Assembly: GCA_963920765.1 (NCBI GenBank)
Contig: OY987243.1
Coordinates: 28,143,419 to 28,207,418, forward strand
DNA: 64,000 bases
Direction of reading: 5' to 3'
Origin: Ulota crispa
Taxonomy: Eukaryota > Streptophyta > Bryopsida > Orthotrichales > Orthotrichaceae
Part shown: positions 25,904 through 63,747 of the stretch, one piece after another
Layout of the letters: each line of letters starts with the position of its first letter
How positions within the stretch are numbered: the stretch's first letter is position 1
Program-made: the position numbers and the translations under genes
The notes under the pieces: generated by a model
What the model saw: the letters and a program-made list of their open reading frames with translations, nothing else
Databases searched by the model: none
Told to the model about the DNA's origin: nothing

Positions 25904-26137
25904 CCCTTAAAGGACCGAGCTACTATAATACATATTGTGTACACTGTTGTATAATTTGCATTTGCTACCAACAAAAAGTTTTAATTTGAGATCTTGATTA
26001 CCTCACTACAACATCATTGATCTATATTCTAACTTCTTTGTTGATTTCAAACATAACAAAGGTGTGGATGCACTCCAAATATAAGAAAAATATTCCATAT
26101 TGTACTGGTCGCAAAGGGCTCCTTGATTGTTCAAGGG
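25904..26137. mobile_element. Short TTAA-flanked (piggyBac-like) element, 234 bp
   Basis: TTAA (25900-25903) is followed by CCCTTAAAGGACCGAGC, and the other end reads TTCAAGGG followed by TTAA (26138-26141). The left end closely matches that of the 46175 element (CCCTTAAAGGTCCGTGC). It is too short to code and would be a deletion derivative. Confidence 0.5.
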
Positions 26138-42328: not shown

Positions 42329-42330
42329 TA

Positions 42331-42463
42331 AGGTAGACATACCCAATTCCGACCATATTTGTAATCCCGTACAAATGTGCAAGTTGATTTCAAGTTTAAA
42401 ATCTACTGCTTGTGTACAATTGCGCAGGATTACAAACATGGTTGGAATTGGGTATGTCTACCT
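42331..42463 (+). mobile_element. Short TA-flanked MITE, 133 bp
   Basis: The arms AGGTAGACATACCCAATTCC and GGAATTGGGTATGTCTACCT are perfect inverted repeats, and further pairing (GTAATCC/GGATTAC) continues inward. TA flanks both sides (42329-42330 and 42464-42465). The first six bases AGGTAG match the family at 38023, so both may share a transposase source. It directly abuts the Tourist-like element. Confidence 0.8.
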
Positions 42464-43431
42464 TATACACAATCTCTTGAATGGAAGTTTCACATTGTTG
42501 ACACAAAAATTTCTATAAAAAAAAAAATTGTGATGCCACGTAAGTATATTTAGGTGAATTTTGTAATACATCATGTCCTCGTATTCAATCTCTCCATGAA
42601 TTAATATTTGAGAACTTTGTGGGACTAGGGTAGTAGTGTGAAAGGCTGCTTTAGAACTTCTGAGCATCTAAAAAGTGAATAAACAGATTTAAAATTGGTA
42701 ACTTTCACATGACTTGTGCTGAACCTTCATTTGGGCTAATCATTACCAGACTCTTACCTCATTGACACCAGCTAACATAAAAGGATGAAACAATGGATGG
42801 AATTGTTAAAACCTCTAAAGACTGAAGCCTGAGGTTCGGCAGTAGTTGGATGAAAGATACTAATAGGAGCTGATTGAAAAGATGAAAGTACGCACGTGGA
42901 TGACTGTATCCCCCGTTGTTTCTCCTTGTCTGCCTGCATTCTAGGGTGCGTGTCGCTCACCCATTGGAGAAAAACCTATGCCAACAAAACAAGAGTTTAA
43001 AATTCACCACAAGCCAGGAGGGAGAGGCCAGACAAATTCGATGCGGCAGATAGGCACACAATCATAGTGTCACAAAGTACTGTAGATTCGAAGATGCTTT
43101 TTGAATCTCCTCCTTTACTTTGAAATATTTTTTCCTAAAGCACTTATTGCGTTACTGTTGATGGGTACTGTGCAGAATACCTCTTTGGCTCCTTGCTCAG
43201 CACCAGCTGTGTCCCTTTCTATTTTGCACTACCTACTCCTTTGTATGAAACTGGAATTCCATCCACCTTGCGGAGGTCTTGCCGTCTTGAAGCATATCCA
43301 CCCATATTGTAAAACAACAGGTTAGGGAGATTTTTGGAGGAAAAGGGAGTCATTATAGCATGGATTTGTCAAAATATTCTTCTTGATACGGCAAAATTTG
43401 TAATTCCATCTTGCATACAGAAGTTCTTTTA

Positions 43432-44350
43432 ACCCCTAAAGGCCCAAACTAAGCTTTCGCCAAAACCGCTTCAAAGTTGTCATTTCTAGTAAAAGCACCA
43501 TATTTTAGAAAAAAACATTTTTGAACATTTATAACCATAAGATCTTGTAACACAATAGTATCAAAAGATGTGAAAAAAAATCTAATTTTTTTTACCATAT
43601 AGATTGTAAGATATTTGAGTTTGAATTGACAAAATGTCATTTTTTGTTTTGTAAAAACTCGAGCAACTGCAATTCACAAGATCATATTTGTATGAAAAAA
43701 TTTAAAAAATGTTTGTAGCTTTTTGGATTCATTCCTCAAAACAAATTGGGTACACTCTTCAAGAGTTCTAAAACTTATGGAATTGTATAACACATGGGAA
43801 AATAATAGTAAGTAAAATGAAGTAAATAACAATTCCAATTATTAAATTATTAAGATTTTAAATATGAAAATGAAAAATGCCAATCCCAATGGTTGCTGTG
43901 ATGTTGTAATAAATAATTCACATCCCTTGATATTTTTTTCAAAAACATTGAAAATTGGGAAACAAGGACTTCAAAGTTTATTTTAGATGAGTAGAGAATC
44001 CATAACTGCATGCAAACAAAAACTCTTCATAAATTGCATCTCATTGGTCAAAATGGAATGATTCAAAGCTTTCCACATATACATGAATCTCCTAAACCGG
44101 TTTCAAATTTTTGGTTTTGAAAATTTTGATTTTTTCTGATTTGCCCAGATTGTCCACCATAGGAAAAAAGCAACATATCACGCCATAACTTTTTACTCAT
44201 AATTCCAAATGTTATGAAATTTAATGCATATGAAAGATACTCCTTGTTCTCAGTTTCCATTAAAATTTTAGCCTAAAATATGAAATTTAATTGTAGGTGC
44301 TTGCCCAATGTTGCTATGTTGTCAAAAAATGTTATTCAAGCCTTTAGGGG
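43432..44350 (+). mobile_element. piggyBac-like TTAA-flanked element, copy 1 (919 bp)
   Basis: TTAA (43428-43431) precedes CCCCTAAAGGCCCAAAC, and the right end is CCTTTAGGGG followed by TGAA, one change from TTAA. The interior matches copies at 55752 (same orientation) and 62826 (opposite orientation). No open frame resembling a transposase. Length and ends fit a non-autonomous family. Confidence 0.75.
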
Positions 44351-44713
44351 TGAAAATTTACATTTTTTGAGTAATTACTAGGCTGAATAATTAATAATGG
44401 AGAACCTCGATTTGCTATTGTTTGAAGCGTTATTTTACCTAGTTGGACAGATGGGGAAACAAGCGGTCAACATTAGAAGCAACAAACAATACACTTCCTT
44501 TGAATGCCTTCACGGCTTGTGTAAATAAACAATACACTTCCCAAATGATAAATTTTTTGAGATTGCCTACAGAGGCTCTTGGTGCGTTTGGCATTAATAT
44601 ACCAAAGACTAGCACTATTTGAAAATCTTGTTTTATTAGTGCCGGACTGCCGGTTGAAATGCTTGAGGCCACTTTAGAATAGGAGTCAAGGTAATCAAAA
44701 TTTGAGCCCTTTA

Positions 44714-45017
44714 AGGTAGGAGCACCCATAAACGTCAAACTAAGGGTTTTGAACATGATAACGGTTAGAAAAACAATTAGCAAATTATAGGATTCTATTA
44801 GGAACAGGCATTTTTGAATGTATTATTTGGATATTATGATCGAGAATAAGTTGTGAATTTTTAAAGAGCAAACTATCATTGCACCCATAACCACTTTTAA
44901 GATTTCATGTTCACATGTTGTACATCCTTGTCATTACATCTATTGACTTCCACAGATTTTCCAAGATTTCAGAGGTGACCGTTATGGGGACTCTGACGCT
45001 TATGGATGTTCCTACCT
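44714..45017 (-). mobile_element. TA-flanked MITE, family AGGTAGGAGCACCC, copy 2 (inverted)
   Basis: The ends are AGGTAGGAGCACCCATAAAC and the inverse GCTTATGGATGTTCCTACCT, flanked by TA (44712-44713 and 45018-45019). The interior is in the opposite orientation to the copies at 38023 and 52035. Length is 304 bp. Confidence 0.85.
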
Positions 45018-45019
45018 TA

Positions 45020-45879
45020 GATCTTAATGACAGCCTCAAGCTGCTCATTGAAACAAGAATATGTTTGAGCCTTTTTCTCTTTTTCTTTTTTTCTTTTTTG
45101 TATCTAAACGCCTTGAGGTAAAAGCATCAAGCCATCAAAAAAAATTGGAAGAGAAGGAAGGAAGAAGAAAACCTGAGAATTAGATTCCACATTGCAATGT
45201 CGACTATGCAAAATTTATCTAATTTTATACTAAAGTGATAGTATTTTGATGAAATTTGACAAGCGCTCCAAAGTCATAATTTGATCTTTTGTTTTTATTG
45301 TAACAAATTTTGGGTCTTGGGATTGTAAAGTATCTTATCTCTTTAGCATCAAAAAGTGTTCAAAACTTTGGCCTCAACTCCTAACTTGAAGAGGTCTTTA
45401 TACATTTATACAAGATAAGATTAGAGCTTGGCGTATTTGTAACTCCTTTACAATCTAATGTCAATTTACTAAAATGGTATTGTGCAAACTTGTCACGTTT
45501 TGAGTATTTTATATCTACAAAATACAATGAGCCTTTTTATCAAAGTTGAAATTTCTTTTAATTTTGCATGGAATCTAATATTGAGTCTTTGCTAGTATTT
45601 GAGAACAATTTAGTTCATAATTTGTAATACATCAGTCTGTAAGGCAAGAGTTTTCCTTTAACAATGGCTTCCATGGGGAGAATCTTTTTGAATTCGGTAG
45701 ATGCGGAAATTTCACTAAACAAACACCATTTGCAAAAAGTCGTTATTGCTAATTGTTTTTCGATGCTGGTCAATGAATAACTAGTTTTGTATGAATCCAA
45801 AAAGACCGTAAGTTCATTCCTTAATTATGTTATACTAAAAAAAATTCACTGATCATATCTTCACCCCTAAACGTGCCGA

Positions 45880-45975
<96 letters not shown>

Positions 45976-46170
45976 CTATACAAATTTTATATTTCATATA
46001 CGGTATTGTAGAAGGCTTGAACATTTGTTGATGTTTGCATTCAAAGAAAATGTGTTAGATATCGATCCCCAAATGCAGGGCTGGTCATGGTGACTACCCC
46101 TCTACAATAGCACTATAGTGGTGTGGCTAGTGTACACACATTATAGTATTGTGTTTAAAAATTGCACAAG
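45020..46170. other. AT-rich spacer including a dinucleotide run
   Basis: No gene or transposon end recognised apart from the TA and T runs listed separately. Confidence 0.5.
45881..45975. repeat. (TA)n microsatellite joined to a T run
   Basis: About 34 consecutive TA units (45881-45949) run directly into about 26 T. The run creates spurious Ile-Tyr open frames on the minus strand. It may be misassembled in length. Confidence 0.95.
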
Positions 46171-46174
46171 TTAA

Positions 46175-47026
46175 CCCTTAAAGGTCCGTGCATCCAAAAA
46201 GTGGATGCTCCTTGGTCAACCTCAATTATAGCTTTCAAAATATCAATTTTTTGGTATGTGGTTCAAATTAAGAAAATGAAGCTTGACAAGTTTCCTTTTT
46301 ATTTCATTTAATTTTTTGAAAAATGTCAAAAATCAAAAGAGTTATTGCCATTGAAAGCTCAAGTGTTAGAATTCAAATAACACAATATGGTGTGTTTTTC
46401 ATTCATATTTTCTACACTTTAAATGCATTTTAATTTTAAATTATGCAACTATGTTTCTCATTCTACCATTCATTTATAATAGAAATTATAGATTTTTTTA
46501 ATACATATTCTAATTGATATGATTTTATTTCCATATTTAGTTTTCAAAAATCACAATAATTCAAAATTTCCATCAAATGAAAATAATAATAAAAAAAAAA
46601 GAAAATGAAAGTGTCTTCCAACAAAAAATATCAAAGTTTTATAAATTAATTAAACATAAAAATAAACTTGGTTTGATAGTCAAATTTGACTTTAAATTCT
46701 TTGTTGTGGTTGTTTTGGGTGTAAAAATGAAACAACCAATTGAAATTTTTTCACACTAATCTGTAATGTTGCTTGTACCTCTTGAAAAGAATTCAAGGAA
46801 TTTGGATTTTGTTTGCTACTTTAACTTATTTATGTTCATCTTTTGAAAAAAAAATGATAACAATTACAATTTTTTATGAATCAAACTAAAATTTCTTGCA
46901 GTGATATATCATTCATAGTTTCAAGCAATAAAAATATAAAATTGTTGTTTGAACACACTTCAAAAGGAAAAATTGAGCTTAGACACGAAGTTTGACCATT
47001 TCAAAATGGATCAAGTCCTTTAGGGG
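46175..47026 (+). mobile_element. piggyBac-like TTAA-flanked element, copy 2 (852 bp)
   Basis: TTAA (46171-46174) precedes CCCTTAAAGGTCCGTGC. The right end AGTCCTTTAGGGG is followed by TTAA (47027-47030). The interior differs from copies 1, 3 and 4 more than they differ from each other, so it may be a separate subfamily. The left end is closest to that of the 234-bp element at 25904. No transposase frame. Confidence 0.75.
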
Positions 47027-47151
47027 TTAACAATACATGGTTGCATGCTACTATCATGAAAATTACAAGAAGGGCAACATGGGACATAATATTGTGTTTG
47101 TGAATCTTATCACAATTTGGGTCACTTGAAAATATAAGGGCACTTTAGTTA

Positions 47152-47456
47152 CACCAAATTGTGCATTTAGGTTGTCCCACACTAATTCCTTGACATTTTA
47201 CACTATTTAAATTATACTTACTGCTACTACAATAAATTTTAGCAATAATTACTACAACAAGCAACTATTAAAGGCCTTGGCAATAACAACATAGCTACAT
47301 AAGAACAAATTAGCAATGTCCACATGGTAAGCAATGTGAAATCCTAGTATCTAGACAATTTCATGTGCCATCAAGTTGCCAAGTCATGAGTCACGAGGTA
47401 ACTTTCCATGGTAAGGCAACCTAATTGGTAAGGCAACCTAAATGCAATATTTGGTG
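47152..47456 (-). mobile_element. TA-type MITE, family CACYRAATWKTGC, copy 2 (inverted, unsplit)
   Basis: The ends CACCAAATTGTGCATTTAGG and the inverse CCTAAATGCAATATTTGGTG are flanked by TA (47150-47151 and 47457-47458), the clearest target duplication in this family. The interior is inverted relative to copies at 41389 and 55723. A 17-bp local duplication (GGTAAGGCAACCTAATT / GGTAAGGCAACCTAAAT) lies near the right end. Confidence 0.8.
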
Positions 47457-48075
47457 TAGTTTTTCATTTTGCCTTCCATGATAAACCATGTCTTCTATGA
47501 TCACTACTAAAAAATCAAAATTCAAATGATTTTTTTTTTTTTCCATCCCACAGGATACTTTTTGTCATCCATAAGACAAAAATTGTCCGCCTCTGCGTTT
47601 ATGGGTTAAATTGTCTAAACTGAAGCATTGGCTTGCTACGGAGTAGACGCTCATGGTGTCTTACCAGAGTACGGCGATCCACACAATTTCTACACGGAGG
47701 TGCGAAACGTCGTTCGGAACGGGGTTCCGTATGGCGATGCGCGCATGCTCGTCTCCTGCTAAGGTACGCAATTCCTCTACACAGGTCCACATCCACCAGG
47801 TGCCAGGTGGTGAGGTGTGTTTTTTGCAGTGCTCCTACAGCATATCATTTACAGCAGTCTTCCAAGCCCATATCCCAAGAACACTGCCAGCAGGATTCGG
47901 CACATGACAACAAGTCATCAGCAACAGTAATGAATGAGCTAGAAGGACGTCTGAAAAGCAACCTGATATTATGATATCAGAAAAAGCGAACGGAAGGACC
48001 ACGCAGACAGCAGATCGAGCGAGTGCACACGAGACTGCTATTCTGGAGTGGCGGTCGTTGCAGCTCGTGACGACT

Positions 48076-48112
48076 AACGGACGGACGGACCGACGGACGG
48101 ACCGACGGACGG
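48076..48112. repeat. ACGG/CCG tetranucleotide-type tandem repeat
   Basis: Units ACGG and ACCG alternate as ACGGACGGACGGACCG and repeat for about 37 bases. It is the cause of Arg-Thr-Asp repeats in an overlapping open frame, which I do not call a gene. Confidence 0.8.
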
Positions 48113-48462
48113 CTTCGAAGGCGGGGGAAGTGGCCGTCGTCGTCACGTTCTGGCGGAGGAGGGAGGGATGAGAACTGCAGCGTTGGAGGGAGAAGTTTTA
48201 GCTTCACCGGCTAAAATCCGGCCTTTGCCATTTTCAACCGGTTTTTCACGGGCATGGACTGGATTTTCCTTGGACGAGGTAATTCTAGCATCCGCACCCG
48301 CACCCGTGCACGCAACCTGGCAACCTGGGGCTCTTGAAAGGAGGTGTACATGGTGCATTCACAATCATAGTCTGGCTCAAATCTTTGATGCCCCACTCTT
48401 GCACCTGACCAAGTACAAGCAAGCACTAAATGCATATTGCAGAGGACAAGTGTCAAGTTTCA

Positions 48463-48681
48463 CTTATGAGCCTCTAGTATCTATCAATCAACAAGTTTTC
48501 ATTGTCCTAGATTTGGGCGCACTAATGATTCATCAAACCTTAAACATTTCAATGTTCAAACTACAATTGAGCAAGCTTATGAGCCTCTTGTGTCAATCAA
48601 TCAATAAGTTTTCATTGTCCTAAATTTGCACTAATGATTCATCAAACCCTGAACATTTTAGTGTTCAAATTACAATTGAAC
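48463..48681 (+). repeat. 113-bp tandem duplication
   Basis: CTTATGAGCCTCT starts one copy at 48463 and a second at 48576. Both continue through AAGTTTTCATTGTCCTA, ACTAATGATTCATCAAACC and a GTTCAAA.TACAATTGA block with few differences. No role is apparent. Confidence 0.8.
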
Positions 48682-49562
48682 GAACCTTGGCTAGAGTGTG
48701 GCAAGTTGCGAGTTTACATTGAGGCGTGCCAAGCAAAGCGACCATGCCAAGAGCTATTTAGGGCATGTTTTCTGTACAAGGGTGCAGATGCTTTTAGGTT
48801 GTTTTTTGGAGAAAGGTGGCCAGTTAATTATCCGGTGCTTTCAAATTTTAACCGGCTGACTGTACACTGGATGCCGGTTGTCTCCGTACATCGGATGGGA
48901 AGGGCCCCAAGCCCAACCGGAGGCGCCTAAAAGATCGGGGGGAGGCACGCCGCGATTAGCAATTGGCCTTTCTGGCAGCGCCACCCGGACAGATCTAGCC
49001 GTGGGGGACATAGCAGCACGCTGATCGACACATTGCAGCTGGACCTCCTGTACCGCTAGCTGTGCCGGGGTGGAATGAGCTTGGCAACGCGGTTCAGTTA
49101 GCCGGGTGGAAGCTCACATCATTTCATTCGTCCCCCACGCACTCTCTCTGTCTCTCTCTCTGGGGACGACCTGGTTACTTAGATCGTCGTCCTTGCGTCG
49201 ACCAAATCTCACTTGCGCAGTGGACTCGCTGTTCCGGTCGAATTGAAACAGCTCGAGTCAATCCTTGCCTCTGTCGCCGTGACCTGGATTTGTATTCTAG
49301 ATTTGTGTTCGTGGAGGCGCTTTTTGATTGCAGATCTGGAGGTGCGGAGACGCTGGGTTGCTTAAACCCTGAGGCGCGGGTGTGGGGATTCGAATGTGGA
49401 CAGATCAGGCGCGTGAGGGCTACGAGGCGAGGTTCGGGATTGACGTAGGGGTGGAATCCATGTAGACAGGCGGGTAGCAGGTGGGATGAGCTGAGCTCGA
49501 CTGCCGTCGTCGTGTGCTGTGGTTGTGAGCGTTGGGTTCTGGGGGGTGGGGCGTTGGATTGA

Positions 49563-51044
49563 ATGACTTCGGCTTTGAAGTATTTGTGTTGTGGGGTGAA
49601 ATGCCTCGGGAAGCCCGGAAAGGAGGGAGAGGCGTCGTCGACGAAGAAGAAGGCCGCCCCGGTCTCCAAGTCGAAGAAACGGGCAGCAGCGCAGAAGCCC
49701 GTGCAGGACGCAACGTTCTATGGCCCCAGGATCTTCACCTACAGGGAGCTCACGGCGGCGACGAAGCAATTCTCGGCGGATGAGCTGCTGGGCCGGGGCG
49801 CGTTCGGGAGCGTCTTCAAGGGGACGCTGACGGACGGATCGGTTGTGGCCGTGAAGCAGATCGCGCACGATTCGAATCAAGGCGAGCGCGAGTTCCTGGC
49901 CGAGGTGAGCATCATCAGCCGCATCCGGCACCGGAACCTGGTGCAGCTGCAAGGGTGGTGCCATGAGCGGGGAAACCTGCTCCTGGTCTACGACTACATG
50001 CCCAACGGGAGCCTGGACAAGCTGCTCGAGGGCAGCAATAGCACCGAAAAGAATCCCGGGTGGGACATGCGGCACGCTGTTTTGCGAGGCGTGGCATGCG
50101 CATTGTCGTACCTCCACGAGGAATGCCAGCAATGTGTGCTCCACCGCGACGTGAAGCCCAGCAACGTCCTCCTCGACGAGAATTTCAATCCGCATCTGGC
50201 GGATTTCGGCCTCGCGCGCTTGATTCACCACACCACTGACAACGTCCAGACCACCATCATCGCGGGCACGCGCGGCTATCTCGCACCCGAGCTTTCACAG
50301 GTGGGCAAAGCCTCAACTAAATCCGATGTGTTTTCGTTCGGGGTGCTGGCGCTGGAGGTCGCGACGGGTCGCAAAGCGCTCGACAAGTCCCAGCCGGAGA
50401 ATCAAAGCGTCAGCTTGGTGGACCAGGTGTGGCGAGCGCATGAGCAGCATGTGCTTCTGTCCATGGCGGATCCGAAGCTCGCCGGCGCGCATGACCCTGA
50501 GAGGATGACCACGCTGCTCCAAATGGGGCTCTTTTGTTGTCACCCGGATCCCGAAGCGCGCCCGCCCATGAGCTTCATCCGTCAGTGGTTTATTCAAGAG
50601 ATCCCTTTGCCTTCGCTCCCTCCATTCAAGCCTCGCGTCAATTACGTCCTCACTCCTGCATCCCCGCCCAAGCTCGCGCTGCTGGCTCCGCAGCTTAAGC
50701 TCGCCATTGAAGGCCCGCCGACGAAGAATTTCGCCATTGAAGGTCCCAAGTCCGCTACGACGAATGGCACCGCCACTTCCAATGGGTCTAGCGTTACCCT
50801 GAGCCCTGCGACTCGAAGCCCTGCGACTCGAAGCCCTAACACACGAAGCCCTAACACACGAAGCCCTAACACCCGGAGCCCTAACACACGAAGCCCGGTG
50901 TTCCGCAGCCCAGCGACCTCGCGAGAGAACACGACCACCACCACCACCACCTCGAGAACCAGCTCGCAATCCCCCATGACGACAGCGGGCCAGCCACGGC
51001 CCGCACACACGGAACCAGTACATAAGTTGACGAAAATCGATTAA
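49563..51044 (+). CDS. Receptor-like cytoplasmic kinase related to L-type lectin receptor kinases
   Basis: Intronless 493-residue Ser/Thr protein kinase. The kinase domain has every core element: glycine loop GRGAFGSV (77-84), VAVK Lys98, HRDVKPSN (194-201, Asp196), DFGLAR (214-219) and GTRGYLAPE (235-243). FTYRELTAATKQFSADELLG and LQGWCHERGNLLLVYDYMPN resemble the kinase domain of L-type lectin receptor kinases (clade VIII type). There is no signal peptide, lectin domain or membrane helix, so it is cytoplasmic. The N-terminus has cysteines (LCCGVKCLG, 8-16) suited to palmitoylation, then a Lys-rich linker, suggesting membrane attachment. The C-terminal tail holds eight pentapeptides of the SPxTR type (414-453), then Thr- and Ser-rich sequence. 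The tail looks disordered and phosphorylatable. The first Met (49563) is chosen because it precedes the cysteine cluster. GC content is much higher than in the flanks. Looks intact. Confidence 0.93.
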   Translation: MTSALKYLCCGVKCLGKPGKEGEASSTKKKAAPVSKSKKRAAAQKPVQDATFYGPRIFTYRELTAATKQFSADELLGRGAFGSVFKGTLTDGSVVAVKQIAHDSNQGEREFLAEVSIISRIRHRNLVQLQGWCHERGNLLLVYDYMPNGSLDKLLEGSNSTEKNPGWDMRHAVLRGVACALSYLHEECQQCVLHRDVKPSNVLLDENFNPHLADFGLARLIHHTTDNVQTTIIAGTRGYLAPELSQVGKASTKSDVFSFGVLALEVATGRKALDKSQPENQSVSLVDQVWRAHEQHVLLSMADPKLAGAHDPERMTTLLQMGLFCCHPDPEARPPMSFIRQWFIQEIPLPSLPPFKPRVNYVLTPASPPKLALLAPQLKLAIEGPPTKNFAIEGPKSATTNGTATSNGSSVTLSPATRSPATRSPNTRSPNTRSPNTRSPNTRSPVFRSPATSRENTTTTTTTSRTSSQSPMTTAGQPRPAHTEPVHKLTKID

Positions 51045-54000
51045 TGGCATCGCATTGGAATGAGCTGTGTTACATTGGAAAGCCAACTTTGCTAGAGTTC
51101 ACAGTAGAGATTATTTAAAATATTAGGTCATAATGGGGCATTGCATTTTTATTTTGTATCTACCAGGATTCAATTGAGTACATAGCTGAGTGGGATAAAT
51201 CGGTCGTTGAGGATGCTTGCCTTCCTGCCCACCCCTTCTCCAGGGTGTGCCCTATTTTTTGTAATTCATATGTTTCTTCCCTCCCAAGCTGGCTTCTTGC
51301 AGCAGCTTCCGAATCCACCTCTCGATGTATCTGCATTTTATGATCAGAAAGACGTCCGAATGCGCAATTCTCGTATACGCGCTGTTGCGTTTAGGGTTTG
51401 CTCATTCCCTTGCGTCTGCCTATCTGTTGACGTGAATTCCAAATCCTAACCCTTATTGATGGGAAGTAAAAGTAGAGTAGGTGTTGCAAGAGTGTGACAT
51501 TCTAATGATTGTTTCTGAATCCAGTCTTCAAACATGAGAACGTTTTGTGTGTTAAAGTATGAGTTACTGGTGCAGATATCTAATCGCTTTCCTAAATTGC
51601 TTCCATTTTTGCAGCTGAAGTCGCTAACTTTCTGACAAGTTTGTATAATCTGTGACTTCCGCTGGGGTTAGTGGAGGTGACACGTCGTAATCCGTTGCAA
51701 AGCGCAGTAGGGATGATCGTGAAGACGCTGGACAGTTGTAATTCATGGGGTGATAATGCAGGCTCTTTTTGTGCCGAAAGAGTCTGGTTAATCATTCGCT
51801 GAGAGTGTTGCCGGCGGTCTCGCTTTCGGTTTGCCTCGTTTTCGTCAAAGTCCGGTGCAGTCGTGCTGATCGTGGCGTGGGAATGGTTTCGTAGATTGTG
51901 ACGGGGCGAATCTTTGCAAATCCTAGATGGTTAATGACCAATTTAGGGCAATCTATGGTACTGCTGATCTGCCAGTGACGTCACACTGCGTGTGGGGGCA
52001 TAGTGACGTAGATACACCCGAAACAGTAGGGGTAAGGTAGGAGCACCCATAAGCGTCAGTGTCCCCATCCCATAACCGTCACTTCTAAAATTTTGGAAAA
52101 TCTGTGGAAGTGAATAGATGTAATAACAAGAATGTATAACATGTGAACATGAATTCTTAAAAGTGGTTACGGCTTTAATGGCAGTTTGCTCTTTAAAAAT
52201 TCATAGCTTATTCTCACAATATCCAAATAATACATTTGAAAATGCAAACTCATTTTTTTTTCCTGTTCTTAGTAGGATCCTATAATGTGCTAGCTGTTTA
52301 TTAATAGTCAACATGTTCAAGACCCTTAGTTTGACGTTTATGGGTGCTCCTACCTTAGTCATAGTTTGTTTTTGCCGCTCTCAATCTTCACAGAAATCTA
52401 ACATGTCGTGCTGTCCGCGACTGGCACGGCCAGTTCCGTGAAGATTGAGAATAAAATTCTCGTCCCCCAAGCTTGGAGAAATGGCTTGAGAATATTTTTT
52501 GCGTGAGAACTCTTACCAAGGTCCACCTATTTACTAGCTCGTGAATTGCTTTTCACCCTTGCTTTTTTTGCTCCTCCAATCAGTGGTCGTGTTGCCTTCC
52601 TCTAAGTAAAACATTCTCCATTCTTCATTCTTCATTCTCCATCACCCACAAAAGGAGTGTCATAGCTCCTTTCATGAAGAAATGCTTCGATTGTCTCCTA
52701 CATTCACTCAACCATTTCTCAATCTTTGCGGAAATCTCAATCTCAGACCAATTGTGACTACCACTAGTGGTGATGAGGTTTATTCAGCTTACTCTCCACT
52801 CAAAATTTGGGTATTTCTCCCATTGTATCTCAATTAATTAGGGATGGTTCACACTAAGTCCCACTTCGATGCAAGGTCCTAGCTATGTTGAGTTATAAAG
52901 TGCACAACAAATTATTAAAGAAGGGTATTGCTATTGTCACCTTGATCATCAATTTTGCTACTATCACCACACTTTGCATGCACCACCCATCACATGTCAT
53001 TCACACCATTTGCTATTGCTACCACAACTTACCACCCATTAAATGTGTTTTTCTCAATCACAAGTGCCTTTATTGTAATTTTTGCCATGGTCACAACTCA
53101 CCTAAAAGAAATTATGAGAGATGTTAGAATGTTTATCACAATTGCTTAACATGAAGGTAGGCCCCCCTTCTAAGAGATACAATTAAAGTGTCACAACTTG
53201 CAAAGGTGTTAGGAGTGTCAACTTCTATGAGAAAACAACATTGTGCAAAAAGCAGTGAAAAGAGCAATGAATGTGTAGCATGTGGTGGCATTAGCAAAAA
53301 TTGTTGGTTGAGGTGGCAATAGCAAAAACTACGGTACTATAGCAAGGGCAATGTTTTTAGAGAAAGCCAATACTTTTCTAGCAAAAATTTGATATGGCTT
53401 GGTTTCAAAGTTGGGTGTATGTTTTTGCTTGACACAACTTTTGAGATAAATCCCACCTTCTTGGTATCAAAACTTCACTAAGTAGTCTTGCCATGTAGGC
53501 ATTTCTAGGTGAGCCTAGACTCAAGTTGTATTTCTCAACTCTTTAACAATGGAAGGGCTTTTTGAGTTTGAACTTATACCTCTTTATTTTTTTCCAACTT
53601 GAACTAAATATATGAGATATTGGAAACCTATGGACAATACAAGGTGAATTTGATTTGCTCCCATGTTGTAATTGACCATACTACATCCATATCAAATTTT
53701 CCATTTAGGTTCTTGTATAAATATATAATAACATAAAAACTATCTTATACAACTTTCATTTCCCATAACCTAATTGCACAAAATCAATCTCATATTACAT
53801 ATTTTATAACATTTTATGGTTATTGACTGTATAAATTGTTGGGATTGTAAAGATTCCTTTCCACAATACTTGAGCAACTTTAAATTCACAAGGAGTCACA
53901 TACACACTTTAGATTGGATTTCAAAATCAATTATAAATACAAACAAAGTGCTAGGAGATTTTGCATTCAAAAATGACAAATGTTTTCTTATAATTCAAGC

Positions 54001-54603
54001 ATGAAAGACAATCAAGAGTTGAACTTCTCCATCTTTTTTGCAAACTCTCTTCTTTCTCAAGTGTGGATCCTTGATGAAAGAGCTTAGACTACATTTTAGG
54101 AAACAAGGCAAGAGTTTAGTAATTTATAATTTGAAGATCAACTTTGAAGTACTTGAGTTCATCTTTGGATACAAATGCACTTAATTTGTTTAAGAGAATG
54201 AGAAGAAATAAGTCAATTGATTACAAAATAGAAGCAGACTTTTACTTTTATTATTGTTCATAAATTGTTTTGGACTTCTCCACTTTGGATCCACATACTA
54301 GGAAAGAAAAGGCTCACAAAAAGATGGAGAAGCTCAACTCTAGATTGACTATATTCTGCAAGTTCCTATAACCTTGATGATATAGTGTCATGTAGTTGTT
54401 TTTTGTATGGTTCCTTGTACGGAGGTTTTTATTTTTAGCTAGTTGTGGCACTTGTTGGTCCGACTGGAAGTGAAATAATTTCAAGCCCACTTACACAAAA
54501 CTTTTCCCATGTAGTAAAACAGTTTTTGTTTTTTATCCACGTGGTTTAGAAAATGGTTGTTTTTTACCCACCTAGAAAAAACATTTTTCATTAACACCCA
54601 CAT
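51045..54603. other. Kinase 3-prime region and spacer
   Basis: The first few hundred bases are probably kinase 3-prime untranslated sequence. A palindromic TGACGTCA (bZIP-type site) occurs at 51975-51982. The MITE at 52035 is listed separately. The rest is AT-rich with no gene seen. Confidence 0.5.
52035..52355 (+). mobile_element. TA-flanked MITE, family AGGTAGGAGCACCC, copy 3
   Basis: The ends are AGGTAGGAGCACCCATAAGC and the inverse AACGTTTATGGG-like GGGTGCTCCTACCT end, flanked by TA (52033-52034 and 52356-52357). Length is 321 bp and the orientation is the same as the copy at 38023. It is inserted downstream of the kinase gene. Confidence 0.85.
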
Positions 54604-54612
54604 AATTTTTTA

Positions 54613-55066
54613 GGGGATTGATATGTCTACCACACCCTTTCAAGTATTGTACCACGCCCTTTCAAGTATTGTACCACACCCTTTCAAGTATTGTACCACA
54701 CCCTCAAGATAAGTTTTAGATTTCTACCATCAAATAATTGAATTTGAGAATTTGGAATTCAGATTTGGATTTAGAGACCGTGATTTTGTCTAAAATCATA
54801 AAAAGATTCTAATTGAACAACACCCAATCAAAAAATTATCTTTTTTATAAACAAAAATAAAAGTAATACTTTTCTCCCAAGCTAAGCGTTTTCATTGGGT
54901 GTTGTTCAATTACAGCATTTTTTTATGGTTCTAAACAAAATCACAGTCTCTAAGTCCAAATCTGACTTCCAAACTCTCAAATTCAACTTTTTGATGGTCA
55001 AAATCTAAAATTTACCCCGAGGTGTGGTACAATACTTGAAAGGGAGTGATAGACATATCAATCCCC
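54613..55066. mobile_element. Mutator-like hairpin MITE, copy 2 (454 bp)
   Basis: The ends GGGGATTGATATGTCTACC and the inverse ATAGACATATCAATCCCC are flanked by identical 9-bp repeats AATTTTTTA (54604-54612 and 55067-55075). The body is an inverted repeat like copy 1 at 23802, with the same central ACAACACCCAAT pairing. The left arm alone has a 22-bp unit (starting TTTCAAGTATTGTACCAC) repeated three times at 54638-54703. Confidence 0.9.
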
Positions 55067-55075
55067 AATTTTTTA

Positions 55076-55722
55076 CCCACGAAATTTTTTACATTTTTGT
55101 TTTTATCCATGCAATAATTTTCATTTATTACACATAATTGTTTATGTTTTTTAATTTTTGGTCCCCGCAATTGTTTACCCACACAATTTTTTACATTTTA
55201 CATTTTTTATTCAAGCAATTTTTTACCCACATAGTACTCACACAATATTTTTACCCACATAGTACTCACACAATATTTTTACCCACGCGGTCAAAGGATC
55301 GCCAGTTTATGTATTCTTTTAAGTAGAGAGATAGTCCTTATTATATTTTTATGTAATGAATGGGGAAATTCAAATCAAAAGTTGAAACATTGTGCTATAT
55401 GAAATCTTCTGAAAGGGAAAACCTATTGCTTATTGGGTGCTAAAATAGTTTGATGACACCTAATTTTGTTGTCCACTTTTCCTCGAGTATGATAGGTGAA
55501 CTTGCTAGTGTTTTGGAAGAGTCAAGATCTTTAGGGGTGAGAAACCCCAAACATGCATAATTACAACAACACAATATTGCCCCATTGTTCATGGCATTAA
55601 GTTTGATTCACAATTTTATTTTATCAGGGTAAAATTTGAGCTAGGCGGTTTCTGGTGATAAAATTTCTTAAAATCAGAACCTCCTAACACTGTAAATCAG
55701 TGCAATGTAAGTACATATGTTG
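55076..55722. other. AT-rich spacer
   Basis: Contains short repeated phrases such as CCCACATAGTACTCACACAAT (twice near 55229-55275). No gene seen. Confidence 0.5.
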
Positions 55723-56957
55723 CACTAAATATTGCAATTAGGTTGCCTTAACCCCTAAAGGTTTTTGAATTTCTTTTACCAAAATGTTTCAAAACTGTCA
55801 TTTCTAGTATAAGTACCAAATTTTAGAAAAAAATCAATTTTGGACACATGTAATCATAAGATCTTGTAGTACACTAGTATCAAAAAACATGGAAAAAATT
55901 TCAGAAATTCTTGCCATGTAGATTGTTAGATACTTGAGTTTGAATTGACAAAAAATCATTTTTTATCCCTACAAAAACCTAGGCAGTTGCACTTCACAAG
56001 GTTATGTTTGCATGACAAAGTTTCCAAAATGGTTGAAGCTCTTTGGATTCATTCTTCAAGGCAAGTTGGGTATACACTTGAAAGTTTTCAAATCATTTGG
56101 AAGTGTAGAACACATGGGAAAAAAACAGTTACAAAAAAAAAGTAGAGAACGATTTAAAACACTAAATTGTCAAGAAAATAATTATGGAAATGAAAGTTGC
56201 CAATCCCAATGGTTGTAATTTTGTAATAAATAATTTACATCCTTGGGTTTTATTTTTTCCAAAATACTGAAAATTGAGTAAGATGAAGGACTTCAAAGAT
56301 TATTTTAGATTAGAGAATCCACAACTTCCAACAAACAAATTCTACTCATAACTTTCATCTCATTGATAAAAATGGGATGATTCAAAGTTTCCCACGTATA
56401 CATAGATCTACAAAACCAATTTCACCTTTTTTATTTTATAAATGTAAATTTTTTAAAGTTTTTTGAGATACCCAAGTTGCCCAAGAAACAAAGGAAACTA
56501 CATATAATGCAATAACTATTGAACCATATAATAAAAAGTTATGAAAATTGTTTGACCTTAAAGCTACTCCTTGGGCACATCATGGGCAAAAATTTCAAAG
56601 AAAAAAAACAACAAATCCATTTGTAGTGAGCTACCCAAAATCACTATACTGCCAAAAAAAGATTGTTTGGACCTTTAGGGGTTAACAATTACATTGCCTT
56701 ATCTTAAAAAATTACCTCATGACTCATCACTTGGCCACTTAGAGGCGCATACAACTCTCTAAATATTAAAATCTCACCTACTTTACAACTTGGACACAAC
56801 TAATTTGTTTTTTTGCACCTTTATTGTTGTTGCCGTGCACGTTAATAATCGTTTATTACAGTAATCCTTGATGAAACTACTGTGGAATCAGTAAATACAT
56901 GTATAGTGTAAAATGTCAAACAATTAGTATGGGGCAACCTGAACGCAACATTCAGTA
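55723..56957 (+). mobile_element. TA-type MITE, family CACYRAATWKTGC, copy 3, split by a TTAA element
   Basis: The left piece (55723-55751) begins CACTAAATATTGCAATTAGG and the right piece (56682-56957) ends near CAACATTCAGTA. Together they make about 300 bp, colinear with copies at 41389 and 47152. The piggyBac-like element at 55752-56681 sits between them. Confidence 0.75.
55752..56681 (+). mobile_element. piggyBac-like TTAA-flanked element, copy 3 (930 bp), nested
   Basis: TTAA (55748-55751), then CCCCTAAAGG; right end GGTCCAAAC-type inverse reading GGACCTTTAGGGG, then TTAA (56682-56685). The interior matches the copy at 43432 in the same orientation over most of its length (for example CAAAACTGTCATTTCTAGT, GAGTTTGAATTGACAAAA, CCAATCCCAATGGTTG). 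It is non-coding and inserted in a MITE whose unsplit sister at 41389 keeps one TTAA. Confidence 0.85.
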
Positions 56958-57478
56958 TGGTAATCAACCTTATCTAACATTGAAGTTAAATACGTATTTC
57001 TCACGGAGAATACGTAGAGGGGATAAAAATACGATACTCCGTGGTTGGCAGGGCCATACATATTCGTATACCGCCACCGGATCCAGCGCGCGTCGTCGGT
57101 CCGCATGGCTGGCTATCTGATCCGAGGGCCTTTCCAAATGTCACACTCCCAAAATTGCAACAGCAGGCCTCGCCAGGAATTCTGAGCAAAGTAACACCGC
57201 ATCGTCGTCACCACCCCTAAGCTTACCACCACCGTCTTCACGCTCGCCCCTTGTGTCGCTTCAAGTTTCCACCTCCACAGTCCACACACACAAAGAGTTT
57301 GGTGCATTGATGAGGGGGACTTGATAACGGCAGAGTAACTTATTTGGTGGCGCATGTTGTTCCTGAAATTGTACAGTCACCGAGCTGTTCACCCTTGTGA
57401 TTATAGCTCCATAGATTGAAGTCCAGAGTTGTTGTTTTTCGTCTTGCGTTTGCGTTTGGGGGTGATTTTCATTTGACA

Positions 57479-60400
57479 ATGCCTCCGTTGTCGCAAGGCC
57501 TGGCCTTGAATTCCCAGACGTTGTCCGCTCTGTCAATGCTTCTGGCAGTGCCCAAGGTGGTAGCAGCCAGTGCTGCTGGCTCGGAGATGCTCAGCCCTGC
57601 GACGCTGCCCTCCAAATTTGTGCATGTCAAATCCCGACGCGGCTTTCTCAAGATTTGCGGGGCGTGCAGCGCCACGTGCCGAAGGAATGCGAGGAGCAAA
57701 ATGGTGGTGTGCCAGTGTGTTGGGGAAGACCCTCAATGCTCCAGGTAACGCTTCAAATCCAAAATTTCAAACTACATCCATTGTCCACTATTGCAATTGA
57801 AAGGAGTTAAGCTGATGGAGCGGCAAATTCACTAACCCTAGAATACTAAGCACCTGAACCCAGAGGATGTAACGCACTATCAATTCGATGCAAAGCTTCC
57901 GAGTAGTTAAGCTTAACCTGCATTGCGAAAACACGTCGAACTATGCATGTCCTACAAAGTTTTTGAATAGAACCAGGAGTAGTATAGATCTGTAGTGGTT
58001 GTAATTTACGAGGAGCTTGAAGTCAGGATGAGGTCTTTGTTTGCGGGATTTTCAGTGAGTCTGTTCTAAGTTGAAGCTTTGCTTGTTTTAGGGTTCAGCT
58101 CCTTGCTGCCAATTGTGTGTGTCCGGTTTGGGCTTTCTGAGAGGTGGACGTGATTTGAAACGTGCAGGTCGAGTGCATCGGAAACGAGCAAAGGTGAGGG
58201 CATCGTGGAGGGGGGTGGAATGCGGCGGCGGACGTTTGGAGCCAGTGTCGTAGGTGGTGCATTAGCCTTGCCCTCTCTTGTGGGACTCCAGGGTAAGTTG
58301 CACTTTTAGCCCTATCGAACATGTACCAACAGATAAAAACATTCAACTCGAAGTATTCTAGAAACCAATCCTTGTTACGGCTCTCAGGTTTACAGTAGAA
58401 ATGGCTTCAAAAGTGGCTAGGTTTTCTATGAGCGAGTGAAGATGCATCACCTCTGAAACCAGTTTTTGCAATAAAAATTGAAAAAAAGGAATCTAGCTTT
58501 GACAGTTCGATTGCTTGAACTCGATTTTTGTGATTTTTTGTGATCTTTGCAATGTTTTTTAAAAGGTTCGTATATATTGAAGCTCCTTGCACAATCTGAC
58601 TTGGCATTGGTTTGGATGGGGCTGTGTAGCAAGGGCTCTGGGTGACCCTACTGTGACCATTGCCGAAGTAACTCCGGCTGTCACGCCTGCTGGTATCCTC
58701 CCTCCTGCTGAGGTTAGTTCATTCTCAACCACAATACTTCTCAGTAGATATTAATAAGTATCATGTAGCTTTGCACTGTTTGATTTTTAGTTTCTGATCT
58801 TTTATCAATTTGATCCGCTTTTGGCGTTGATCAGGAACGCACCGTGGAGCTCTTTGAACGCAACACGTACTCTGTTGTTAACATCTTCGACGTCACACTG
58901 CGACCCCAAGTCAACATGACTGGCTCCGTTGAGGTTCTGATTCCAGAGCGTCTCACATTCCTCTATTCAATAAACTTTAGATTTCTACTCATATTTTAAA
59001 GAGTTCTAGAAGGTTAGCTAAAATTGCAATATACTCGGATAGTAGAAGCTTTCTTGGTGATTTCTGTCATTTAGTACGTGAGTCAACTTTTGTTATTTTT
59101 TCTTTGTTTTTGTGGACCCGAGTTAATGTATGGCATTTATGTGCAGGTTCCTGAAGGGAATGGATCAGGGTTTATTTGGGACGAGGAAGGCCACATTGTC
59201 ACAAATTACCACGGTTAGTTAGTTCCTTGTATATCTATGAGTTCATTGAATAATGTGCGTAGGAGTCTTTATAATTTAATAGGGGTTTGAGAGTGCCGTT
59301 CCTGAAGGAAAGAGGTCTTGTGTATGTCTCTGGCCTAAATATTTTTCTACAAGTATCGATATGTTTGAAGTAATTTGCATTGGTTTGCAATACGCCTGTG
59401 CAGTTATTGGGAGCTCATTGGCTCGTAACCCAGCTCTGGGACAAGTTGTAGCGCGTGTTACACTGCTTGGTGCCGACGGGTAAGAACTTGATTTTTGCTC
59501 TTTTGACCAATTAGTGTGGATGCAAAACTTAATTTTCCCAGAGATTTGGGAAGTGCGACTCTGATCAAGTGCTGCATTGATATAAAAAAAAATCTTGTGG
59601 TACTTGGCATAGTTTTTCTGCTCTTTTCACTGCGAAAGTTGCCATCGTTGATGACCTTGAGGCTTACTGGTTTCTTTTGGTGGTGGTTTTTGGGCAGGGT
59701 AGATATCAGAAGAATTTTGAGGCAAAGCTAGTCGGTGCTGACAGGACCAAAGACCTTGCAGTTCTGGACGTACGTTACCGTCCCCACTTTTGCAGGGACC
59801 ATCACAGTTTGAAACTAAACAGTTAAAGATTTTAGCAAGATTAATATGAAATTACTGCTTTCCCGTTAGAAACGCTCGTTTATCCCACTCCACACGTTCC
59901 TAGTTACAATGAATACCACCTTCAAAGCAATGCCAAGTACCATATGGCAAGAGAATAGTCAAAACCACGGGTTTGCCCTCTAAATACCAACTCTTTAAAA
60001 AGCAGTTTATGCGACAGACTAAAATTCCGAAAAGTCAAACACAGGGTCAAAGTGAAAGCACAGTCGAGGCCAAAATCATAAAAAATGGAGTAGCTCATAT
60101 CAATATCTCCCTCAAAAGAAGTCAAAACGTTAAACCCTAAACCCTCAAACCCTAGACCCACTTGTAAAAGTTCAGAAACTGGGTGTTCTTGTGCAGGTGG
60201 ATGCTCCTGTGGAGTTGCTGCGTCCGGTGAAGGTGGGGCAGTCTTCCAAGCTGAGAGTTGGGCAGAGATGTTTAGCAATAGGCAACCCCTTTGGCTTCGA
60301 CCACACTCTCACCGTGGGCGTTGTCAGTGGGTTGAACCGAGACATTTACAGCCAGACTGGCGTGGTCATAGGGGGCGGCATTCAGACCGACGCTGCCATT

Positions 60401-62363
60401 AACCCTGGCAACAGGTAATATATCCCAACTCTGGTAACAAATTTGCGCTCTCACGCAGATTTTTACTGAAATTCTTGATGGACTTGGCACTTTACTAAGT
60501 CTTCATTCTTTTGTGGGGGGTGTGCAGTGGAGGTGTACTCTTGGACTCGCGAGGTAATCTCATTGGAATCAACACTGCCATCTTCACTCGCACAGGTGCG
60601 GGGTCTCTTCCTTGAAGACCAAGTTTGTGTTTGTTTTTTTGGGGAATCTACAATCAAGAGTACAAAATCACAAAACAATTATTAGTAAGGGCATAGTTTG
60701 AACGTAATTATTAGCAGAGTCACACCTATAGTACCACCATTGCCCTTCGTTCACCCTCGGCCAACTCGCTGCTACCCACCAACCTCTCATTGCACAACCT
60801 TTTGGTACTTCCAAAAAACCCATGTTCACTTGTGCAAGCAAGCATTGTTTCTCCCATTTGTAAACTCTCCTTGTCTTTTTTTACAACATTTTTTTGGCCC
60901 TATAGAGGAAATCAAATGCTAACTCGGGACTCTCCTTTTTTTGGCTGGGATTTTGTTGCAATGGTGAAGGCACGTCAGCTGGAGTTGGATTTGCAATTCC
61001 TATCGACACAGTTGCCAAACTCGTTCCTCAGCTTATTGCTTATGGCAAGGTTGGTAAATTCAATTTCTTAGAGCTTTTGCTTAATCCCGTGTTTTGAGAA
61101 ATATCACGGACTAAAACACGATTTTGCAGGTTACGCGACCAGGACTGAATGTGCAGCTTGCTCCTGAAGCTGTAGCCCAGCAACTCAACGTTCGCAGTGG
61201 TGCATTAGTATTGTCGGTGAGATCCCGAACTTCCACCCTAAAATTCCACAACAACGCATATTTCTCTTCAAACTTTCATAATTCGGTGGATTCAAGTTAT
61301 ACAAAGTCTTTCCTTGAAGTGGACGTTGAAAAGCGTGGTAAGTCTAATGTCTGCAAAACGCATGTACGTACATTGGCCAAAGACAGCATGGTACTACAAT
61401 GTTCACTATTTTCCATTATATTCTTTAGTAGTAGTGGCATGGCAGCTTATGAGAACAAATGCCAAGTAAGAATGATTTAGAACAAAGTTGTGCTTAGTGA
61501 GAAAAAATCAAGACAAAATCAAAGATGTGAATCTCAATTCAAGTTAAGGTATTCTGAGTATTAATTGGTATCATTAGTAGTGCAAGATTTCTTAGTCAGC
61601 ATACTTCCTTGGCCAAATGAAACACCAAGCCTCCTGGGATTTGGTACAATCCAGGGTTTATTCTAAGCTCTCTATTGAAGCTGTTTGACAACTCCATTGG
61701 GTCCGTGAAACATTTTTGCAACAGACTCCACATACTTATATCTAACCGAAGCTTTGATATACTTCTACATGCAAGGACATGAGCCTTCTTACCTTGAGAA
61801 GCTCTTCAAGCTCTCAATGTTGCAAAAACTAAGTATCAGGGATTCCTTGTCTTGCCGATTTTAAGAGTGCTCGACAAAGGTTCTCCAGAGTATTACAATT
61901 GTTATAGCAAGCACACCTCCAAGGCATAATTCTTGTGTAAATATTTACAGGTACCAGACAGAAGTGCGGCAGCGAAGGCAGGGCTCATAGCAACGAGGAG
62001 AGGGTTAGCAGGGAACATCTTGATCGGTGATATAATTGTTGCCGTTGGCGAAACCACTGTGAGTATACCGTGACTCAATTTTCCAAACAGCCTTGTCATT
62101 CCAAAAAACTGGCATTTACTTCGACTGGAGAGGATTTAGTGTTAGGGTTAGGGTTTAGGGTTTAAGAGTTTCTACATCTTAGAATGTCTTGTTTGCGTTT
62201 CTTCAATTATTATTATTATTATTTTTTGTCGCAGGTCAAGAATGCACAAGAGCTTGCGAAAGCGTTGGACAGCTTCCAAGTCGGAGATGAGATTCTGCTC
62301 AAAGTGCAGCGGAACGATCAGACTCGGGAGTTGCCATTGACGCTCGAAGAGAGCTCTCGATGA
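57479..62363 (+). CDS. DEG8: Thylakoid-lumen DEG8-type serine protease
   Basis: ATP-independent chymotrypsin-type protease of the DegP/HtrA family; Arabidopsis DEG8 works with DEG5 in the thylakoid lumen on damaged photosystem II D1 protein. Exons: 57479-57744, 58168-58292, 58630-58712, 58835-58933, 59147-59213, 59404-59479, 59703-59769, 60197-60414, 60528-60595, 60970-61049, 61130-61216, 61951-62058, 62235-62363; 490 residues (an in-frame Met at 57416 would add 21). Arabidopsis DEG8 has about 448. The N-terminus is basic and hydroxylated as in a chloroplast transit peptide. RRRTF (108-112) and a hydrophobic stretch ending ALPSLVGLQ form a likely twin-arginine lumen signal. The catalytic triad is His213 (VTNYHVIG), Asp256 (TKDLAVL) and Ser334 (NPGNSGG). 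One PDZ domain follows (about 370-485), which fits DEG8 and not PDZ-less DEG5. [20 protein letters not shown] and [13 protein letters not shown] are near-identical to DEG8. After SGG the usual Pro is Val. Looks intact. Confidence 0.95.
60131..60155 (-). repeat. Telomere-like repeat in DEG8 intron 7
   Basis: TAAACCCTAAACCCT followed by CAAACCCTAG carries about three degenerate copies of the plant telomere unit (CCCTAAA) within the intron at 59770-60196. Confidence 0.7.
62141..62165 (+). repeat. Telomere-like repeat in DEG8 intron 12
   Basis: GTTAGGGTTAGGGTTTAGGG followed by TTTAAG is a short interstitial run of TTAGGG/TTTAGGG units within the intron at 62059-62234, in the opposite orientation to the run in intron 7. 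Confidence 0.75.
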
Positions 62364-62456
62364 AGCCACCGCTGCCTCTTCTTCAAAGACTTCACGTATT
62401 GCGTCTCTTGTGCTTCTTTTCACATTCTTAGGAGATTTGTATTGGAACTTTGGCGC

Positions 62457-62462
62457 AATAAA
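62457..62462 (+). terminator. Likely polyadenylation signal of DEG8
   Basis: AATAAA lies about 95 bases after the DEG8 stop codon, followed by T-rich sequence. This is a good plant near-upstream element, but position alone does not prove use. Confidence 0.55.
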
Positions 62463-62825
62463 TCACCTTTGCTTATTTTTCTCTATTTTTTTAAGGTAGA
62501 TGAGTGATTTCATAAGTCCAAATGGCTCTTTAAACTTTTCACCCTTCATGTATATTACATCAGAAATTCGCTAAATTTGCTGTTTTTTTTTGAAGTTTTA
62601 TGTTTGAACTCCAAACAAAAAGTGAACAGTTCAACGGCATTGTTTACAACAATCGTAATTGTAGTGGGTGTAGTTCTTGTCTACCTTTATAGGTTTCCAT
62701 ATTAAAAACTCAAGCAAGTTTCTCTTTCACGTGGGTCCTTGAAAAGTGGAAGTTTTAAAAAGCAGGGGTTTTAAAAGTTGGTTTTTTTTGAAAGTGGAAG
62801 TTTTAAAAGTGGGTGTTTGGTTTAA

Positions 62826-63747
62826 CCCCTAAAGGACCAGACCCCCATTTTTAGAAACATAGCAATTTTGGGCATGTATGTACCTATGATTGGAGCTTTT
62901 CATATTTTAGGCTGAAATTTTAATAGAATGTGGGGACGAGGTTTATCTTTCATATGCACTAAATTTCATGACATTTGGGATTCTGAGTAAAAAGTTATTA
63001 TTGCCTAATATGTTGTTTTATTACATCTGTCGGGCAGCTTGGGCATATTTCTAAAAATCAAAATTTTCAAAAACAAAAATTTGAAATTGGTTTAGGAGAT
63101 TTATGTGAATGTAGGAAGCTTTGAATCATTCCGTTTGGATTAATGAGATGAAAGTTATGAGGATTTTTTGTTTGCAGGCAATTATGGATTCTCTACTCCA
63201 AAATAAACTTTGAAGTCCTTTATTTTACTCAATTTTCAACATTTTGGAAAAAGAACAAAGCCAAAAGATGAATATTGTTTATGACAACATTATGACCATT
63301 GGGATTGGCGTTTTTTCATTTCCATAATTAAATTCTTAACAATTTTGTGTTTTGAATTATTCTCTACTTTTTACTTATTAATTTTTTTCCATATGTTATA
63401 CAACTCCAAATGATTTGAAATTTTTTTGACATGTACTTTACTTACATGGAATAAGGAATTTAGAGAAGCACTACCCACATGGCCTTTTTTCCTTACAAAT
63501 TTCACCTTCTGAAGGGTAGCTGCCTAGTTTTTCACGAGACGTTTTTGAATATTCAAACCATTCTAACTTTCAATCCACATGGTGGAAAACTCTGAAATTT
63601 TTTCCACATCTTCTAAAACCATTCTTCTACAAGATCCTGCACTCACGTATGCATAAAAAAACATTTATGTTTTCAAATTTGATTGATGCTCTGAAAATGG
63701 CAGTTTTGAAAAGTTTTTGGTGAAAACTTTGCTTGGTCCTTGAGGGG
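62826..63747 (-). mobile_element. piggyBac-like TTAA-flanked element, copy 4 (922 bp, inverted)
   Basis: TTAA (62822-62825), then CCCCTAAAGGACCAGACC; right end TTGGTCCTTGAGGGG, then TTAA (63748-63751). The interior is the reverse of copies at 43432 and 55752; for example, the reverse of its right end reads TTTTCAAAACTGCCATTTTC like the left part of copy 3. No coding frame. It lies about 460 bases after the DEG8 stop. Confidence 0.85.

Follow-up and report, generated by a model that had tools for sequence, protein, structure and literature searches.

TTAA-flanked, non-coding elements of probable piggyBac type at high copy number in a probable moss nuclear genome

Five short elements in the 64,000-nucleotide stretch of DNA analysed here (the window, part of contig C2 of a 275-Mb assembly of 157 contigs) are very probably non-autonomous, non-coding miniature inverted-repeat transposable elements (MITEs) of the piggyBac superfamily, a group of transposons known chiefly from insects and other animals, and reside in the nuclear genome of a bryophyte, probably a moss. 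The group of TTAA-ended elements is genome-wide: the exact sequence TTAACCCCTAAAGG, a TTAA-flanked CCCCTAAAGG end, occurs 15,411 times in the genome (7,719 + 7,692), and its reversed pattern, taken as a control, occurs once. A sequence-only reading of the window had pointed to several copies within 20 kb, which are indeed present but understate the extent of the group.

Three of the window elements are one sequence family: a 918-bp MITE at 43433..44350 (plus strand, ends CCCCTAAAGGCCC / CCCCTAAAGGCTT, left TTAA at 43429-43432 and right flank TGAA), a 930-bp MITE at 55752..56681 (plus strand, ends CCCCTAAAGG, TTAA at both sides) and a 922-bp inverted relative of these two at 62826..63747 (minus strand, ends CCCCTAAAGGACC / CCCCTCAAGGACC, TTAA at both sides). 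Identity was 74.8% over 809 bases between the 43433 and 55752 elements, 72% over 945 bases between the 43433 and inverted 62826 elements, and 70.5% over 749 bases between the 55752 and 62826 elements; together with the 935-bp consensus, the comparisons of the 43433 element spanned 72-75%. The consensus holds no long open reading frame (ORF), its longest stop-to-stop stretch being 71 residues. The other two elements, an 852-bp MITE with a different interior at 46175..47026 (plus strand, ends CCCTTAAAGGTCC / CCCCTAAAGGACT, TTAA at both sides) and a 234-bp element at 25904..26137 (plus strand, left end CCCTTAAAGGACC, right end CCCTTGAACAATC, TTAA at both sides), had no match to other window elements in the pairwise comparison, and the five together are not the single family that the sequence-only reading had assumed. 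Its coordinates stood for four elements and its first start, 43432, was one base off; the CCC(C/T)TAAAGG ends that it described are carried by four elements, whereas 25904-26137 has this motif at the left end only, its right end being a poor inverse. The TTAA that it had seen at nine of the ten flanks was found again, with TGAA to the right of 43433-44350 as the sole exception. Exact ends are present at 5/10 window-element ends, and the window contains seven exact TTAACCCYTAAAGG 14-mers; the count with three mismatches allowed (20 vs 14.0 expected, with 20 reached in 11/100 shuffles) is uninformative alone.

The genome-wide tabulation of flanks bore out the preference of the sequence-only reading for a 4-bp specificity over a TA target. 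Ends with a changed outer T ([A/C/G]TAACCCCTAAAGG) numbered 654 vs 15,411 TTAA-flanked CCCCTAAAGG ends, so that the outer T is retained in 95.9% of TAA-CCCCTAAAGG ends (15,411/16,065). For comparison, a change of one internal base of the terminal inverted repeat (TIR), TTAACCCCTBAAGG, was found 1,849 times, corresponding to retention in 89.3% (15,411/17,260). The outer T is thus constrained at least as strongly as the internal TIR base compared, a single position, and the target specificity is therefore four bases. In 30 copies of the 930-bp type (the best 30 of 40 scored, the window copy among them, their ends set by BLAST alignment), TTAA was present at 54/60 flanks; the six others read TTCC, TTTA, ATAA, TTAT, AAAA and CTCA, at least the last two being at places where the alignment stopped short. 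We used this count instead of an alternative one on 27 copies (51/54 TTAA), which is biased upward because its copies were chosen with ends near TTAACCCCTAAAGG and two of them are one duplicated locus. Among these 27 copies, duplications outside the TTAA were absent at 4, 5, 8 and 9 bp, and one of 3 bp occurred in 2/27.

The 15,411 exact ends imply at least ~7,700 elements, and extrapolation from the 5/10 exact ends in the window gives, very roughly, a total of ~15,000. Four sample stretches of 10 kb each, placed at round coordinates, gave between four and six TTAA-ended elements according to how many mismatches were tolerated, and one stretch had none; a genome search with 55752-56681 returned 5,213 first-look candidates, of which 40 were scored. 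At three loci (L018 252-2440, L039 266-278 and the right end of L031), adjoining MITEs have one TTAA in common, as if one had been inserted into the flanking TTAA of its neighbour. At C7:12177189 and C7:12171546 (L025 and L026), ~5.6 kb apart, one MITE is found with mirrored flanks in opposite orientation, an arrangement that looks like an inverted duplication.

Related sites without the insert were sought with 57 joined-flank queries, among them overlapping and duplicate ones; spanning alignments were obtained for 12 independent insertions. For 8/12, including window element 55752-56681, one or more related copies are free of the element and bear a single ungapped TTAA. At the related empty sites of 55752-56681 the single TTAA was seen in 3/7 alignments, the others reading TTAC, TCAA, TTCA and TTGA; across all rows the junction was an ungapped TTAA in 37 and TTGA, TTGG, TCAA, TTAC, TTCA, TTAT and the like in others. 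As alignments, these sites would fit clean insertion at TTAA, equally with a 4-base or an inner 2-base stagger.

The genome also encodes piggyBac transposases. A search with the PF13843 (DDE_Tnp_1_7) profile, in which 116 of 528 candidates were scored, gave 120 matches, all above the cut-off (best 254.5 bits), and 0/14 control genomes had a match. Six ORF pieces scanned against Pfam all matched PF13843 and no other domain. The ORF of L047 aligned with T. ni piggyBac (PDB 6x67, 4.1e-20) and piggyBat (9c0f, 5.8e-17), as did the C7 ORF (6x67, 1.8e-17; 9c0f, 1.2e-11). A Cys/His pattern was visible by eye in the C7 and L047 ORFs, with no Pfam match for the C-terminal cysteine-rich zinc domain. Acidic positions in the motifs DE, DN and DQ, which we take to be the catalytic aspartates, line up across the L047 and C7 alignments with piggyBac. 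Five transposase ORFs had 31-56% pairwise amino-acid identity, and several lineages therefore coexist; judged by these identities, we would count four, namely L047 with L049 (56%), L048, L050 and C7. The internal stops of the copies seemingly are TAG or TGA more often than TAA, as seen by inspection without a tally (C4:185679 has 9 TAG, 3 TGA and 0 TAA), and deamination of methylated CAG/TGG sites could account for such an excess. Directly downstream of the transposase ORF at the C7 locus (L065, L054) comes a long simple repeat of (CATA) type, which translates as HTYI repeats.

According to PMC2872659, piggyBac elements have TIRs of 12-19 bp with a CC[C/T]T terminal motif and TTAA. We looked for such ends at 16 transposase loci, several of them on one side only. 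Both ends were found for five elements: L048 1266-6284 (CCCCTCATCGCC / CCCTTCATTGCC), L049 1198-6845 (CCCATTAAGGATC / CCCTTTAAGGACC), C8 446270-451847 (CCCTTTAGGGACC / CCCTTTAATGACC), C2 15046199-15051292 (CCCTTGACCGCC / CCCTTCACCGCC) and C1 30793804-30799103 (CTCCTTGAGGAC / CCCCTTGAGGAC). All five are bounded by TTAA-CCCYT or a sequence near to it, the departures being one left end CTCCT, one CCCAT and one right flank TCAA, that of L049. A right end only was seen at L047, C4:4129821, C6:21758576 and C5:17378513, and possibly at L050, and no clear end at C2:34594948, C8:8233119, C5:21018488 and C5:10869739. Nearest to the window TIR is the right end of L049 (CCCTTTAAGGACC, 11/13), followed by the C1 right end (CCCCTTGAGGAC), the L049 left end and both C8 ends (10/13 each), the rest reaching 7-9. 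The right boundaries of L049 and C1:30793804 are confirmed by a second copy; the right 400 bp of the latter has one further genome copy, 93% identical, at C2:24506998, which sits next to TTAA with a different flank, 1,778 bp beyond another listed transposase. The autonomous-type right-end pattern occurs at 124 sites, and among the 100 matches listed all were CCCTTTA and none CCCCTAAAGG. A candidate transposase element ending in CCCCTAAAGG, C7:11816420-11822432, was rejected, as its flanking ends are separate MITEs: the left one is part of a complete 918-bp MITE with TTAA on both sides, and the right 832 bp has 39 further matches among the 40 scored of 1,246 candidates, with no listed transposase within a few kb of any of them.

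A link between MITEs and transposase elements came from the right 300 bp of L049, for which 40 places were found among 50 candidates. The four best besides L049 itself (C5:17378513, C7:2697503, C6:14253071 and C5:140322) lie 1.1-1.7 kb beyond listed transposases; of the remaining 35, 3 cover nearly the full query, and in 32 the match is confined to 48-194 bp of the terminal part. Three loci fetched from these matches, L066-L068, each combine a left end with a nearby right end. L067 is a 620-bp MITE with TTAA on both sides, while L066 and L068 have TTAA at the right flank and TTAG and GTAA, respectively, at the left. The ends of L067 aligned with those of L049 at 88/123 and 99/124 bases, and those of L068 at 95/125 and 103/128; piggyBac MITEs resembling internal deletions therefore exist in this genome. 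Taken with the TTAA target, the CC[C/T]T-type ends and the presence of transposases, the sharing of both ends by L067 and L049 upholds, at the level of the superfamily, the piggyBac membership that the sequence-only reading had proposed. The check that it had named, a search of the genome for a DDE_Tnp_1_7 transposase flanked by the same ends, came out in its favour at this level, in that transposase elements end in TTAA-CCCYT or near it.

Two subterminal features were compared as well. A perfect stem of at least 5 bp starting 15-18 bp inside was present at 4/5 left ends and 0/8 right ends of the transposase elements, against 22.7% of random window 55-mers; MITEs L067 and L068 have a stem at left-end position 16, and L066 at 11. 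Window elements have the stem at 5/10 ends (both ends of 46175, where a hairpin with a 7-bp stem begins 16 bp inside the left end, and one end, the right, of each of 55752, 62826 and 25904) and thus do not reproduce the difference between left and right seen in the transposase elements; the pattern is suggestive only. The motif TCTAACC is present in exact form 92-101 bp from the end in 16 copies of the 935-bp type and in L049, C8:448613 and L004/L005, and was also noted by eye in L070; as a short sequence match, it is a lead only.

Several results weigh against assigning the window elements to piggyBac. The exact CCCCTAAAGG was found at both ends of a transposase element at 0 of the 16 loci, and the ends of L048, C8:446270 and C2:15046199 were paired with their transposases by motif and distance only. 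A profile of L049-type right ends, run with no positive control, had no hit among the main MITE families, nor any in the reversed control. The exact TCTAACC, itself a short motif, is present in 0/5 window elements, and an ungapped register test of it was favourable for one of three elements (offsets scoring better, of 880: L049, 398; C5:17378513, 43; C8:448613, 0). At 4/12 insertions, related sites lack an ungapped TTAA; window element 46175-47026 is among these, its one related site reading TCAA. A stop-free match was seen in only 10/120 PF13843 rows (8 loci), because of which present transposase activity is doubtful. The lack of a transposase element with exactly CCCCTAAAGG ends, the stops in most transposase rows and the negative profile search would suit a variant compatible with piggyBac membership, in which the CCCCTAAAGG MITEs were moved by a lineage since lost from the genome. 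We consider this variant possible but lean away from it, as no more than 16 of the 116 transposase loci that were scored had an end examined, and 528 candidates exist.

Assignment to other superfamilies is far less probable, although no search aimed at Kolobok, Tc1/mariner or Sola transposases was made. Kolobok-superfamily MITEs would have the same TTAA duplication, which is common to Kolobok and piggyBac, but Kolobok termini are given as 5'-RR...YY-3' (PMC9587614) vs CCCC...GGGG here, and those transposases of this genome that have comparable ends belong to DDE_Tnp_1_7, which makes a Kolobok origin very improbable. We give just as little credence to Tc1/mariner-like (Stowaway-type) elements with a TA duplication and ends beginning ACCCC: since TTAA is palindromic, duplication of the inner TA would leave identical flanks and empty sites, but a TA target with free neighbours needs no such fixed outer T, and DDE_Tnp_1_7 transposases are flanked by similar ends. 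Least probable of all is a Sola-type origin with a 4-bp duplication, one group of Sola preferring TTAA, since piggyBac transposases of the same end type are present in the genome. Sola has an entry for land plants in the table of one review (PMC9033089) and another in a fern repeat table (PMC6890710).

For the CCCCTAAAGG group we thus retain piggyBac membership, and we infer both its transposase partner and the use of the standard piggyBac reaction. One of the several genomic piggyBac lineages would supply a DDE_Tnp_1_7 (DDD) transposase that binds the terminal repeats (CCCYT...) together with subterminal sequence, excises the element and inserts it at TTAA, duplicating the four bases; internally deleted copies with retained ends would then have been amplified to many thousands.

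The land-plant host supposed from the window was supported by the plastid contig C157, which bears psaA and psaB as located by a PF00223 search. Its psaA piece is nearest to 6l35/7ksq/7kux/7xqp and 8htu (753 bits), then to 9lut (744) and 4xk8 (710); the nearest entries we take to be from Physcomitrium patens, so that the host is a bryophyte and probably a moss. Many short psaA/psaB fragments are also found outside the plastid contig, on the chromosome-scale contigs C1-C10, and are probably plastid DNA insertions.

Other features of the window are context for the elements. Between the MITEs and outside them lies a protein kinase ORF (49563..51044, plus strand; PF00069, E 3.6e-49), by our reading a receptor-like plant kinase. 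An inverted repeat of 53 nt (87% complementary, loop of 31 nt) at 42329-42465 is a possible separate hairpin-type repeat. Two minus-strand ORFs at 9242-9895 and 11159-12076 carry DUF4216 and DUF4218, presumably CACTA transposon domains, and are probably a decayed CACTA element.

The superfamily is a known one, and the unusual part is the host together with the copy number. Like T. ni piggyBac (PDB 6x67/6x68), the elements here have a TTAA target and flanks, CCCYT-type ends and a DDE_Tnp_1_7 transposase in which three acidic positions align; unlike it, they reside in a plant, and the transposase elements are ~5.0-5.6 kb long with split reading frames vs 2472 bp in the insect (PMC10813416). Coral CMITEs (PMC2872659) are likewise non-coding, with TTAA flanks, CC[C/T]T-type ends and adjoining copies, and one of their families is tied to a piggyBac element by common ends, whereas the present group has a plant host, several unrelated interiors and ~15,000 exact ends. 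The fern Ceratopteris is also a land plant with piggyBac, annotated there in a repeat table of 1,230 PiggyBac pieces totalling 122 kb, or 0.00% of the genome; the passage describes neither ends and flanks nor a transposase (PMC6890710). Plant Stowaway/Tourist MITEs are similarly short, non-coding and of high copy, but have TA and TWA targets (PMC12595863) instead of TTAA.

Counting against novelty, PiggyBac is among the seven angiosperm MITE superfamilies of PMC10004981, and piggyBac is stated to occur in plants (PMC10140906, PMC10813416). A plant MITE survey of 207 genomes, four of them of bryophytes, used five superfamilies without piggyBac and a MITE length of <=800 bp (PMC12550479); in the available main text of this survey, and likewise in that of PMC12595863, neither piggyBac nor TTAA is mentioned. 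The word piggyBac is absent from the available text of the moss genome papers PMC7466625, PMC9631980 and PMC11704416, as also from that of PMC9247546, and has two matches in the moss genome paper PMC10619864, of which the one inspected was 'piggybacking'. The top-ranked literature titles included none on piggyBac with MITEs in a bryophyte, and we do not claim a first report.

On balance we slightly favour the view that piggyBac has long resided in this genome as a major superfamily and diversified there, with at least 4 lineages and, very roughly, 15,000 MITEs, which may play a role like that of Stowaway/Tourist in grasses and be unseen by surveys of five superfamilies. This bryophyte genome shows that piggyBac transposases and TTAA MITEs can reach abundance in a land plant, and such elements could escape or be misfiled by MITE pipelines. 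It becomes testable whether plants inherited piggyBac from their ancestors or acquired it by transfer, and whether copies in plants still move; a native plant piggyBac would also have practical appeal as a footprint-free tool.

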